Assembly: GCA_018830445.1 (NCBI GenBank)
Contig: JAHJSN010000192.1
Location: forward strand, 1-64,000
Origin: Alphaproteobacteria bacterium
Lineage (GTDB): Bacteria; Pseudomonadota; Alphaproteobacteria; Rhizobiales; Hyphomicrobiaceae
DNA length: 64,000 nt
Direction: 5' to 3'
In this document: piece after piece, positions 13,888 to 20,016 of the stretch
Layout of the letters: each line of letters begins with the position of its first letter
How positions within the stretch are numbered: position 1 is the stretch's first letter
Notes under the pieces: generated by a model
Database searches by the model: none
What the model was told of the DNA's origin: nothing
Seen by the model: only the letters and a program-made list of their open reading frames with translations
Program-made: the position numbers and the translations under genes

Positions 13888-13961
13888 GCGGGTGTAGCTC
13901 AATGGTAGAGCAGGAGCTTCCCAAGCTCACGACGAGGGTTCGATTCCCTTCACCCGCTCCA
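13888..13961 (+). tRNA. tRNA-Gly (anticodon CCC)
   Basis: GCGGGTGTAGCTCAATGGTAGAGCAGGAGCTTCCCAAGCTCACGACGAGGGTTCGATTCCCTTCACCCGCTCCA; cloverleaf with loop TTCCCAA. Confidence 0.95.
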
Positions 13962-14648: not shown

Positions 14649-15245
14649 TTGCACCGGGCCGCCAATGCGACTGAAGCTGGCCCATCGGCGGGGCTTGACC
14701 GCATCAAATTCCGTGTCCAGGAGCGGCCGGATCGCCCGCGTTTTGCATTCCTGATTGCCAACTGGGAATATCGCGGCTCCGCTGCGCTAATCAATCCAAA
14801 AAGCGATATCGATGCCGTCCAGGAGGCGCTCGGAGATCTCGACTTTGAAATCTATCGATACGACAACCTGAACGTTGGCAGCACATTCGAATACCTCGGG
14901 CAGTTCGTGCAGAAGGCAACCGCGGCGGCAGCCGACAACGGTTCGGGTTGCGACATCATGATCTACTATTCGGGCCACGGCATCCAGCTCGCCCAGGGAA
15001 GCCTTATTCGCAACTATATCGTCCCGGTCAGTTTCGATCCGCTCGATCCGGAAAGTTCAGCTGAAGCGGACCTTGTATGCGTCCAGGATGTCCTCAAGTA
15101 TCTCGATTTCGCCACCTACCGGTTCGTGTTTCTCGACGCCTGCCGCGACGACGGCGGCAACGGCGCCAGCAGCGGTTTACTTCCCGAGGATTGTCGCCCC
15201 GGCGCCGATCGATCCGCCGCGCCGTGGAGCGCCGAGCGAACCTGA
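14649..15245 (+). CDS. Caspase-like peptidase (C14) domain; N-terminal part of a frameshifted giant multidomain protein
   Basis: TTG start after GGGAGGGG; FAFLIANWEYRG, YYSGHG (His) and FLDACRDD (Cys); stops at 15245 while the downstream frame stays open. Confidence 0.82.
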   Translation: MHRAANATEAGPSAGLDRIKFRVQERPDRPRFAFLIANWEYRGSAALINPKSDIDAVQEALGDLDFEIYRYDNLNVGSTFEYLGQFVQKATAAAADNGSGCDIMIYYSGHGIQLAQGSLIRNYIVPVSFDPLDPESSAEADLVCVQDVLKYLDFATYRFVFLDACRDDGGNGASSGLLPEDCRPGADRSAAPWSAERT

Positions 15246-18200
15246 TCCCGATCTGGATTTCTCCGGCGTACCCGATCACGACGACGATCTGACAGCCTTC
15301 GAGGAACTGGGCCGCCGTGAAATTGCCGAGGGGCCGGCCCGCCGGGGCCCTTCGGTAAGATGGGCCGCCAATGAGGACGCACCCGACTATGCGCATTCGC
15401 TTGCCGCCGAGGCGGCGGGAATTACACCGCGAAGCCGGTTCGAACTGACACCTGCGGTTCTCGAACTGCTCATCAAGGCGAACTCGTTCCAGCCCGAAGG
15501 GCAGGCGGACACGTTTGTGTTCGCCTTGCGCGGCGGCCTGCTGACCAAGGGAAGCACCTTTGAGAACGTGAATTCCGTCGAAATCGAGGACACGCGGCCC
15601 AACCACGAGGATTTCCGCTGCACCATCGGCTTCTACAATCGGCAGGCGAAGACGCTCAACGCCTACATGTCTTCAACCGTCCCCACCGCCCGATATATGC
15701 GCGGCTACTATAGCGGCGGCAGCAGCGTGAACATGCTTCCGACCGGCTGCTATATTTTCCGCAAGAATGCCCATAAGGGCGGCACGATCAAACCGGCCAT
15801 GCGCCTCACCGATCCCGACAAGCTGACACAGGATGGCTGGGTTACGGTCCTGCGCACCCGAAACGATCTCACGTTCAAGCACGACGATATCTGGGATCGC
15901 TGCCAGCCGTTCGACAATGTGCATTGTGCATATTCGAACTCCTGGTTTTCGTCGGCGGGTTGCCTGACCGTGCAAGGTCCGGCAACCGGCGGCGCATGGC
16001 TCAAGTTCCAGAACGTAATGCGCAATTGGCCCTGGGACGGGCGCATCGATGTGATGCTGCTGACGGGCCGTGACGCCGCGCTGGCCGCGGAGATCCTGCG
16101 TCGCGGGCTGGAGAACGATGACAAGGTTATCGACGCCAGCCTGCGGCGCCTGCGGGTCGGCTCGCACGGGCCAAGGGTCAGCGCTCTGCAAAAGAAGCTG
16201 GGCTTTTCTGGCGACAGCGCGTATTTCGGCTCCAGCACGCGCGCCAGGCTCGCTCAGGTGGAGAAGGAGAAGGGCGTCAACTCCGATGGAACGTATTGCC
16301 CGCGCGACGATGCCCTGTTCGATTGGGGTGTGTTTGCCGTGGACGAGGGAACCGGCACGGGTCAAGGCGACAGCACGGGGACGGAAACCAACAGCGGGTC
16401 TCAGAACGGTACAGGGACGGGGACCGGCTTCGAGGGCATCGATCCCGACAGCCTCACGCTTCAGTCGGACGCTGCCGGTGCCCAGGTCCTCGAAGGCGGC
16501 AAGCGCATAACCGTACCTGGCGAGGGCGAATGGACGGTCGGTCCGACGCTCGGCATGGTGACGTTCAAGCCGCTGGAATCATTCATCGGCGAACCTCACC
16601 CCGTCCGCTATACGGCCGCCGACAAATACGGCCAGACCGCGAGTGCCGAGATAAGGGTGACCGTCAAGTCGTCGAACAAGGGCCCGAATGTCGTTGACGA
16701 CAGTGCGACCACCATGAGCGGGCGGGCCGTCGATGTCGCGGTGTTGCGCAACGATTCTGATCCCGACGGGGCGATCGATCCGGCGACACTTCGCTTTGCG
16801 CAGATCCCCCAGGGCGCTCAGCTTGCCGGCGAACGCTACCTGTCGATCCCTGGTCAGGGCGTCTTCATTATCACGGAGAAGGCCGAAATCCGTTTCGAGC
16901 CGGTGGCCGGCTTCGTCGGGACGGTGAAGGCGACCTACAAAGTGGCCGATGACAAGGGAGCCTATCGCGACGGCACCGTGACGGTCGTCGTCAACCCGCA
17001 CATAGAACCGCCGAAATTCACCGGCGACGTCGGCGACACCATTTCCGGTGAACCGGTAACTATCGACGTCTTCAAGAACGACACCTTCGGGAAAGTCGTC
17101 GGCGGGTCGTCGCAGGGCGGGACCGGCACGGGTACGGCAGGGACCGGCGGGGCCGCAACCGGGGCTGGAATCGACATGGGAACAGGTACCGGAACAGGGA
17201 GTGGCACAGGAACAGGGAGTGGCACAGGAACAGGTTCGACTGGCGGCCAAAGCCCGGCGACCGGGACCGGCAAGCCACTCCACGTCGCCGCACCTTTGAC
17301 GGAAGCCGATCTGGGTACGTTCGCGCCGGGTTCCACGGCTGAGAAATACCGCCGCGCGCTGGCCGAGCATGGCAACCGAATTCTCGCCGAATACGGCATC
17401 AATTCGAATCCGCTGCGCCTGGCTCATTTCATGGCCCAGATCGGGCACGAGTCGGGTGGCTTCACGATCGACCGCGAGTCGCTCAACTACACGACGGCTC
17501 GCCGGCTGATGGAGGTCTGGCCGACGAGGTTCAGGTCGGTCGGGGAGGCAACGCCCTACCGGCGCAATGAAGAAAAGCTCGCCAACAAGGTCTATTTCGG
17601 CCGCATGGGCAATACGCGTCCAGGCGACGGCTTTCTCAATCGCGGCCGTGGCCTCATCCAGATCACGGGCCGCGACGCCTATCAGGAATACGGCCGCAAG
17701 ATCGGCATCGATCTTGAGAACAATCCCGACCTCGCCATGGATCCGGTGATGGCAATCAGGATCGCGGCGTGTTTCTGGCAGGACCGGAAACTCAATCAGC
17801 GCGCCGACGAGCATAACATCGAGCAGATCACCTACCGCATCAACGGCGGCCATAACGGATTGGCAAGCCGCAAGGAGTGGTTCGCAGGCAAGGCCTGGCC
17901 GATCTGGGGAGACGGCGGTGCCCCGCGGCCTCGGGTCAAATCCGCCGGACTGCAACTCGGCGATCAGGGACCCGACGTCGGCAAGCTTCAGACCAAGCTG
18001 ATCGAGGCCGGCTACCTGACAGGCACGGTCGACAGCAAATTCGGCCCTAATACCGAACGCTCGCTACTGCGTTTCCAGGTCGAGTCCGGCCTCAATGCCG
18101 ATGGTGTCGTCACCGATGCGGTCTGGACGGCACTCGATGAAGCCGCCGGTTCCGGTCGCCGCCGCCGCGGTCTCAAGTCAGGCAGGCGCGGAGCACCCGC

Positions 18201-20016
18201 TGGTGGACGCCGTGCCCCCGGAGAGCGTCCTGGCGGCGGCGTGCCGGGTGGCATCGACGTCCATGATGTCGTCCAGCTCATTTCCGTGTTGGCAGGGCTC
18301 GGCGCCCTAGCCTACTTCATTGTCAGCTACACCAGACAGCACGGCGCCTCGGCTACTGCGATACTCGTCTTGATCGCCGCGGCCGTCGCCTTCGCCATAG
18401 CGACCTATCTTGAGCGCCAGAAAGATCAGCGCCTGAGCGAAGAAGCCCTCGGACCAGACCCGCAAGCGGAAGGCCGGCGCTCAATGGATCGGCGAACCTT
18501 GGCCATCGAGGAGGAGTTGGAGGCGATTGACGAAGCGTCGTTCGAGGAAGCCGATCGCGCGCTGCGCCGCATGGGGTTCGACGAGCGTCATTTCGCACCA
18601 GAGGAACCCGCCCGCTACGCGCCAGGGTTGCCGGAAGAGATGCCCGCGGACGAATCGTCGGCTGGCAGCGAGACATTGCTGCTGAACCCTGAAGGTCCCG
18701 CCACCAACGTACCGGCATCCGTCGCTTCGTCGATCCGGCCATTCCAGCTCGCCTCGAGCAACGCCCAATGCGCCCTCATCATGATGTTCGGTGGCGACAA
18801 CGATCTCACCGCGCAGGTCGACAGAGATCTGGCCGAGATGGCGGCGGGCAATTCCGGCAACGGTGTTGTCTCGGTTCTGGCCCTGGCCGACCAGGAAAAC
18901 ATGCCGGCGAGCATCATCGAGATAACGCCGGCGGGCGAGCGGCGGACCGTCGAACAGCTGGGCGAGATCGATACCGGCGATCCGGAAACGCTTGCCAACT
19001 TCCTCGCGCGCGCACTGGTCAGCTATCCGAACGGGACCAGGAAGGCGATCGGCTTCTGGGATCACGGCACCGGTGTCTTCGACGAGGCCGACGATGCCGA
19101 GGTGTTGCTCAAGCGCGGCGCCAACAGGCGGTCCGGCCGCCTGCGTCCGAAGCGCAGATTGTTCATGCGGGCCGAGCGCCGCGCAGCTCTCGAATCGAAG
19201 CCGCGTACCCGCGCGATGCTGCACGACTCGACAGGAGGCGTTCTCACCAACATCGAGGCAGGCCTCATGCTCAAGGCTGCATTTGGCCGTGCTGGGGTCG
19301 CGCCGCCTGTAGAGCTCATGTTCTCCGATACCTGCCTCAACGGGATGATCGAGGTCTTGGAGGAACTGGGCCCCTACGCCCGCTGCCTCGTCGCGTCTGC
19401 AGACACCGAACCCGGATTGGGCTGGGATTACTCGGCCTGGATTTCGCGCACGTGCGCGCGTCCTCCGCGTGAGGATTTCGAATTGTGGGCGCGACAGGCA
19501 GTCGACGCATTCGGCGAAAGCTACCTGGGGCAGACGCGCCAATATCCGTGCACATTGGCCGCCTTCCGCTCGGAGAACGATATCACCGAGCGCTTCGCCG
19601 AACTCGTTGAGTTTGTAAGGCCGGGCGGCGGTGGATCGGCGGGCGGACTGGGCATGCAGGAATGGTCGCTGATGACGGTCGCCCGACAACGCACGCAGGA
19701 CTATGACAACCGAGACAGTTGCGATCTTCAGGATTTTGCCAACCAGCTTGCCAATCTGGCGCGACGTCAGGGAATGTCGGAACTGATGAACCGCGCCCGG
19801 AATCTGGAACGCGCCGTGGCCGACGCCAGGATTTCGAGCGTCGCACTCGGCGATATGGTGTCTGCCTCCCAGGGGTTGGCATTCTGGTTCCCGAGCGGCA
19901 AGAACTCCTACAGCCTGGACATCGACACCTATCGCCGTCTTCAGTTCAGCAAGCTCACAGGTTGGGCAGACTATCTCGACGAAATGTATGGCTTCGGTTC
20001 GGTGCCGACGGCCTGA
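15073..20016 (+). CDS. Giant multidomain protein: uncharacterised domain, peptidoglycan-binding, cadherin-like repeats, GH19 hydrolase, peptidoglycan-binding, 2 TM, clostripain (C11) peptidase
   Basis: ORF of 1647 codons; LRVGSHGPRVSALQKKLGF; DDSATTMSGRAVDVAVLRNDSDPDG; FMAQIGHESGGF and NRGRGLIQITGRDAYQEYG; GDQGPDVGKLQTKLIEAGY; GFWDHGTG and FSDTCLNGMIEVLEEL. Confidence 0.85.
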   Translation: MYASRMSSSISISPPTGSCFSTPAATTAATAPAAVYFPRIVAPAPIDPPRRGAPSEPDPDLDFSGVPDHDDDLTAFEELGRREIAEGPARRGPSVRWAANEDAPDYAHSLAAEAAGITPRSRFELTPAVLELLIKANSFQPEGQADTFVFALRGGLLTKGSTFENVNSVEIEDTRPNHEDFRCTIGFYNRQAKTLNAYMSSTVPTARYMRGYYSGGSSVNMLPTGCYIFRKNAHKGGTIKPAMRLTDPDKLTQDGWVTVLRTRNDLTFKHDDIWDRCQPFDNVHCAYSNSWFSSAGCLTVQGPATGGAWLKFQNVMRNWPWDGRIDVMLLTGRDAALAAEILRRGLENDDKVIDASLRRLRVGSHGPRVSALQKKLGFSGDSAYFGSSTRARLAQVEKEKGVNSDGTYCPRDDALFDWGVFAVDEGTGTGQGDSTGTETNSGSQNGTGTGTGFEGIDPDSLTLQSDAAGAQVLEGGKRITVPGEGEWTVGPTLGMVTFKPLESFIGEPHPVRYTAADKYGQTASAEIRVTVKSSNKGPNVVDDSATTMSGRAVDVAVLRNDSDPDGAIDPATLRFAQIPQGAQLAGERYLSIPGQGVFIITEKAEIRFEPVAGFVGTVKATYKVADDKGAYRDGTVTVVVNPHIEPPKFTGDVGDTISGEPVTIDVFKNDTFGKVVGGSSQGGTGTGTAGTGGAATGAGIDMGTGTGTGSGTGTGSGTGTGSTGGQSPATGTGKPLHVAAPLTEADLGTFAPGSTAEKYRRALAEHGNRILAEYGINSNPLRLAHFMAQIGHESGGFTIDRESLNYTTARRLMEVWPTRFRSVGEATPYRRNEEKLANKVYFGRMGNTRPGDGFLNRGRGLIQITGRDAYQEYGRKIGIDLENNPDLAMDPVMAIRIAACFWQDRKLNQRADEHNIEQITYRINGGHNGLASRKEWFAGKAWPIWGDGGAPRPRVKSAGLQLGDQGPDVGKLQTKLIEAGYLTGTVDSKFGPNTERSLLRFQVESGLNADGVVTDAVWTALDEAAGSGRRRRGLKSGRRGAPAGGRRAPGERPGGGVPGGIDVHDVVQLISVLAGLGALAYFIVSYTRQHGASATAILVLIAAAVAFAIATYLERQKDQRLSEEALGPDPQAEGRRSMDRRTLAIEEELEAIDEASFEEADRALRRMGFDERHFAPEEPARYAPGLPEEMPADESSAGSETLLLNPEGPATNVPASVASSIRPFQLASSNAQCALIMMFGGDNDLTAQVDRDLAEMAAGNSGNGVVSVLALADQENMPASIIEITPAGERRTVEQLGEIDTGDPETLANFLARALVSYPNGTRKAIGFWDHGTGVFDEADDAEVLLKRGANRRSGRLRPKRRLFMRAERRAALESKPRTRAMLHDSTGGVLTNIEAGLMLKAAFGRAGVAPPVELMFSDTCLNGMIEVLEELGPYARCLVASADTEPGLGWDYSAWISRTCARPPREDFELWARQAVDAFGESYLGQTRQYPCTLAAFRSENDITERFAELVEFVRPGGGGSAGGLGMQEWSLMTVARQRTQDYDNRDSCDLQDFANQLANLARRQGMSELMNRARNLERAVADARISSVALGDMVSASQGLAFWFPSGKNSYSLDIDTYRRLQFSKLTGWADYLDEMYGFGSVPTA
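17178..17240 (+). repeat. In-frame tandem repeat, 18-bp unit GGAACAGGGAGTGGCACA, encoding a G/T/S linker
   Basis: ggaacagggagtggcacaggaacagggagtggcacaggaacagg in the sequence. Confidence 0.85.

Follow-up and report, generated by a model that had tools for sequence, protein, structure and literature searches.

The window, a stretch of 64,000 nucleotides from an alphaproteobacterial contig, raises the question of whether a caspase-like (C14) peptidase, a GH19 peptidoglycan hydrolase and a clostripain-family (C11) peptidase are encoded there as one giant protein. A sequence-only reading had proposed such a chain of ~1790 aa as a one-protein lysis module, and all the motifs that it listed (C14, cadherin repeats, GH19, PG-binding, two TMs and C11) were found where it had placed them. 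The joining of these parts was rejected, since the C14 segment is read in frame 0 as far as a stop codon at 15245 and the remainder in frame 1. The locus thus comprises two overlapping plus-strand ORFs, one of 198 aa (14649–15245) and one of 1647 aa (15073–20016). The former, which begins at a TTG codon preceded by GGGAGGGG, follows directly after a plus-strand tRNA-Gly(CCC) gene (13888–13961).

The shorter ORF encodes the p20 half of a caspase-like protein. Pfam matched Peptidase_C14 (PF00656; E 5.7e-16) at 14739–15194, covering positions 2–138 of the 233-position profile only. The His–Cys dyad (YYSGHG and DACRD) is present, as it is in relatives, but the p10 half, which completes the C14 active site, is absent from the window copy and present in the relatives from genomes G008 and G004. 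The nearest solved structures were those of MALT1 paracaspase, with a weak match; the best NCBIfam match, "caspase, EACC1-associated type", fell below the cut-off, and PADLOC returned only a weak "caspase" profile match.

The longer plus-strand ORF, with 1647 codons counted from TTG15073, is the remnant of a gene referred to hereafter as gene 3. Its first conserved part is an uncharacterised region, domain X (15241–16344), which carries a weak PG-binding repeat at its end (~16156–16311) and is followed by CshA/Big_9/cadherin-like repeats detected with Pfam (16390–16986) and by a Gly/Thr-rich linker recognised by reading the sequence (17077–17247), in place of which relatives have Pro/Ala-rich linkers. 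The GH19 domain (17248–17922) has its catalytic Glu, in GHESGG, at ~17449, which was invariant among the aligned relatives. It matched PF00182 (E 1.8e-7), the endolysin family phrog_181 (E 6e-66) and solved endolysins (E 6e-28), with at most 52% identity to phage endolysin-like sequences. By these matches it is clearly of the phage-endolysin type, and cleavage of peptidoglycan is predicted. Downstream lie a PG_binding_1 domain (17965–18135; Pfam, E 1e-17), two predicted TM helices (18268–18324 and 18346–18402) and the C11 peptidase (18763–20013; PF03415, E 1.9e-23), with His at ~19063 (WDHGTG) and Cys at ~19333 (SDTCLNG), both motifs being invariant in the four sequences aligned.

The intact arrangement was found in the congeneric genome G008 (L029/L053), in which three genes encode a caspase, a small membrane protein (gene 2) and gene 3. 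The caspase, of 526–557 aa, contains a complete C14 domain (profile positions 1–232 of 233) and C-terminal TM helices; the gene 2 product has ~205–210 aa in congeneric genomes (211 aa in G008); and gene 3, of ~1680 aa, has the N-terminus MSDPTDFETAVDLS and encodes, in order, domain X, PG-binding, Ig/cadherin repeats, GH19, PG-binding, TM hairpin and C11. From X through C11, its identity with the window ORF is ~45–56% by domain. The same gene order occurs in G004, split across two contigs (L043 and L006). GH19 and C11 share one chain in three genomes, and C11 is the next gene in three others, namely G035 and G011 (L030, L031) and a Devosia MAG contig (L055); in G035 and G011, gene 2 precedes the X–GH19 gene. 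Relatives therefore bear out the GH19–C11 fusion, and with it the earlier claim of a muralytic enzyme tied to clan CD proteases. They do not share the caspase as part of that chain, as it is a separate gene in all intact relatives, is truncated and out of frame here, and is joined as proposed only in the window's own assembly, an outcome that the earlier reading had itself named as refuting it.

Members of the gene 2 family (L053:4486–5118, L043:4288–4854 and L054:4039–4569) are small multi-TM proteins with the N-terminal motif YMSRL(I/V)KL(L/V)PAEA. They matched no Pfam or PHROGs family, nor any NCBIfam family in the search on L053, and a holin assignment was dropped as neither Pfam nor PHROGs matched. 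A search for the C11 subfamily across 85,488 species genomes, limited by its peptide patterns, returned eight loci, five of them with an X/GH19 gene. Only ~6 genomes carry the cassette, five of which are MAGs. Judged from these sequences, the conserved protease/lysin cassette is real and the three-gene form is sparse in Rhizobiales. The C11 homologues of Myxococcus (L059) and another alphaproteobacterium (L056) were discarded as carriers, as blastp found no X, GH19 or C14 at those loci and the neighbours scanned were metabolic or unrelated. A plasmid search gave matches at the GH19 level only. Separately, G004 encodes another caspase that ends in this multi-TM domain (L044:1881–3365); neither gene 2 nor an X–GH19 gene was found in the 6-kb segment examined, and proteins of the caspase-TM type may thus have different partners.

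With regard to genomic setting, a radical SAM gene to the left of tRNA-Gly(CCC) is kept in congeners, with an NYN gene in some genomes, whereas the gene order to the right differs among them; the cassette therefore occupies a variable segment beside the tRNA. In G008, the cassette lies on contig C115 and the radical SAM gene on C39. A defence island was sought in the window and ruled out at this locus, the neighbours being housekeeping or flagellar genes, which counts against the lysis-module reading given below. Elsewhere in the same genome, C14 occurs at the end of a 1523-aa protein (L038:1380–5948) and as a p20-only domain fused to a PG-binding domain (L039:4581–5951; 457 aa).

The window copy was then compared with the intact cassette across the junction between the two homologies (15168–15240, plus strand), which accounts for a locus ~2.0 kb shorter than that of G008. 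In the caspase alignment, homology ends at ~15167, right past the catalytic Cys, with divergence after FLDACRDDGG, and homology of the long ORF with its relatives starts at ~15241. Relative to L053, the caspase C-terminal half, gene 2 and the first ~48 codons of gene 3 are gone, and neither the caspase C-terminal half nor gene 2 was found across the whole assembly of the window's genome. No ATG, GTG or TTG was found in the long-ORF frame between 15088 and 15517, and the only candidate starts, TTG15073 and ATG15088, sit in caspase sequence, which leaves no plausible native start. Because of the divergence after FLDACRDDGG and the assembly-wide absence of ~2.0 kb, we regard the locus as derived by deletion from the three-gene cassette, or as that cassette collapsed in assembly, and this copy is probably non-functional or mis-assembled. 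We consider it an even call that the window contains such a broken or mis-assembled copy of a cassette that, when intact, acts as a stress- or infection-triggered lysis or suicide module. That the strain in fact keeps an intact three-gene cassette, with ~2 kb collapsed during assembly, is a serious possibility that we lean against: the assembly is fragmented (213 contigs), the halves on either side are intact ORFs without decay and the cassette is otherwise conserved around the missing segment, but this segment appears nowhere else in an assembly that is 97% complete, and within the window no repeat adjoins the junction.

Domain X received no name from Pfam, PHROGs or NCBIfam except for its C-terminal PG-binding repeat. 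Its conserved motifs are STVP, N-[IVLM]-H and S-x-G-C, with the conserved His at ~15922 and the Cys of FSSAGC at ~15961 in the window; in one TIR-nSTAND1 protein this Cys is replaced by Ser. A low-confidence predicted model (pTM 0.62) gave PG-binding-domain matches in Foldseek, none of them significant. YkuD/L,D-transpeptidase and DUF5675 were tried as identities; the likeness was confined to an H...SxGC-type motif and found no support from hhalign, Pfam or, with this model, Foldseek. As a lead only, an L,D-transpeptidase-like enzyme or a murein peptidase of the cysteine type would fit the H...GC pattern. A phage origin of domain X was set aside, no relatives being found in IMG/VR. Nearly all relatives of domain X are joined to a muramidase-like domain, which is GH19, Phage_lysozyme or an SLT or other lysozyme-like domain, the last of these assigned in distant members by reading the sequence. 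Several are also fused or adjacent to TPR-S plus Trypsin_2, S8 subtilase plus Trypsin_2, or TIR-nSTAND1, and these partners, together with phage lysozyme, place domain X among protease-driven conflict systems. The suggested link to conflict and cell death thus stands insofar as the homologues group with such systems, and falls as a property of a single protein. Two loci illustrate the range of partners: in G022, tandem genes encode TIR-nSTAND1–TPR–domain X (with the Cys-to-Ser change) and lysozyme–X–TPR-S–Trypsin_2 (L035:2629–12293), and in G251 a lysozyme–domain X gene overlaps a gene for S8 subtilase plus Trypsin_2 (L172:3924–8896), which resembles System 3 of Kaur et al.

We infer from the intact cassette what its trigger would be, which protease would cleave what, how GH19 would reach the periplasm and what role the cassette would play in defence. 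The TM hairpin implies that X/GH19 and C11 share one side of the membrane. The two-TM topology had been read as placing the protease ends on one side; the argument changes, in that the hairpin sets GH19 and C11 together. As the intact orthologues have no signal peptide (MSDPTDFET... and MSSPDFDAPP...), this side is most simply the cytoplasm, which would keep the lysin separated from its substrate by the membrane. A cue within the cell or at its membrane would be sensed by the membrane-bound caspase together with gene 2; the same two, one with its TM domain and the other as a small TM protein, would act as trigger and might also be what breaches the membrane. Against this reading, the cassette contains no NTPase or other sensor. 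The low-complexity linkers ahead of GH19, Gly/Thr-rich here and Pro/Ala-rich in relatives, are possible cleavage sites, at which the caspase and/or C11 (probably a zymogen, as we assume from its family) might cut the tether between the GH19/X half and the membrane hairpin. C11 would also process the anchor, and the freed lysin would attack the wall after membrane breach. We offer, tentatively and with more doubt than conviction, the idea of an undescribed cassette for self-lysis or defence, a peptidoglycan-lytic counterpart of Canu or gasdermin systems, whose membrane caspase (aided by a small TM partner) and C11 together control a membrane-tethered, phage-derived GH19 lysin and a second murein-targeting domain, X.

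That the large protein is a secreted or cell-wall enzyme, acting in remodelling of the wall or in antagonism between bacteria, with C11 serving for processing and self-lysis playing no part, is unlikely. In favour, PG-binding domains, adhesin-like Ig/CshA repeats and a Gly/Thr linker are characteristic of proteins that are exported, but the intact orthologues lack a signal peptide, a caspase adjoins and the domain X family is linked with proteins of the TIR-nSTAND1, TPR-S and trypsin kinds. Least credible by far is a genuine single C14–X–GH19–C11 polypeptide made by programmed frameshifting or masked by a sequencing indel, for although the two ORFs overlap on the same strand, each half is otherwise open and C14–FGE–GH19–PGB exists in one chain elsewhere, the p10 half found in all intact relatives is missing, their C14 stands apart as a gene of its own with TM helices, one further gene intervening, gene 3 has no start and the fused form is known only from this locus. 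The chain just mentioned, of G045 (L049:5136–8222), is a 1029-aa protein with a probable signal peptide, a full C14, an FGE-sulfatase domain, GH19 and PG-binding; it is a true single C14+GH19 chain, independent of the cassette.

Among known systems, Hachiman/AVAST and Canu provide experimental precedents for protease-unlocked effectors, a caspase and a partner activating a pro-nuclease in Canu (PMC12799240). Like CanABC (PMC12799240), the cassette has a caspase, a small partner gene and a downstream pro-effector with linkers and Ig-like folds, whereas the place of the MBL nuclease is taken by a predicted murein hydrolase that has a C11 of its own, and the caspase has multiple TM helices. No nuclease domain was found in the cassette proteins scanned, so the pairing of caspase and MBL pro-nuclease that marks Canu is lacking. 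System 3 of Kaur et al. 2020 (PMC7159879) groups alphaproteobacterial NucA/trypsin/S8 systems whose effectors are lysozyme-like and papain-like peptidoglycan peptidases; it likewise couples peptidases to peptidoglycan-cleaving effectors in Alphaproteobacteria, and a domain X–lysozyme protein adjoins an S8 plus trypsin protein in L172, but the cassette uses C14 and C11 rather than trypsin/S8, and NucA and EAD1 were not found. System 4, a two-gene EACC1–caspase membrane system (PMC7159879), also sets a caspase near the membrane with a small TM protein; in the cassette, however, gene 2 has no EACC1 match, the gene order is reversed and the effector is not fused to the caspase. Metacaspase–Amidase_2 fusions combine a caspase homologue and a peptidoglycan hydrolase in one chain (Asplund-Samuelsson 2012, PMC3501461), and differ from the cassette in being single-chain, in using an amidase rather than GH19 and in lacking C11. 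LypABC of Caulobacter, a protease-driven, immune-like system that causes lysis (PMC13236601), shares with the proposed cassette protease-driven lysis in an alphaproteobacterium, but is built from trypsin, CARD and an NLR-like ATPase, with no GH19, caspase or C11. A further GH19 arrangement was observed on a Paracoccus plasmid (L197, NZ_CP067227.1), where a GH19–PG-binding–trypsin fusion lies beside another trypsin gene and phage-tail, baseplate and PASTA genes, possibly a contractile injection locus.

The window locus shows that a partial deletion or misassembly can imitate a spectacular multi-domain fusion. When intact, the cassette appears to be a new form of the protease-gated conflict systems already known. 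Bacterial caspase and trypsin systems unleash nucleases and pore-formers; if the proposed mechanism is true, a phage-derived lysin that proteases control and the membrane retains would bring in wall destruction as a further end-point, and domain X, previously unnamed, would join the protease–effector network.
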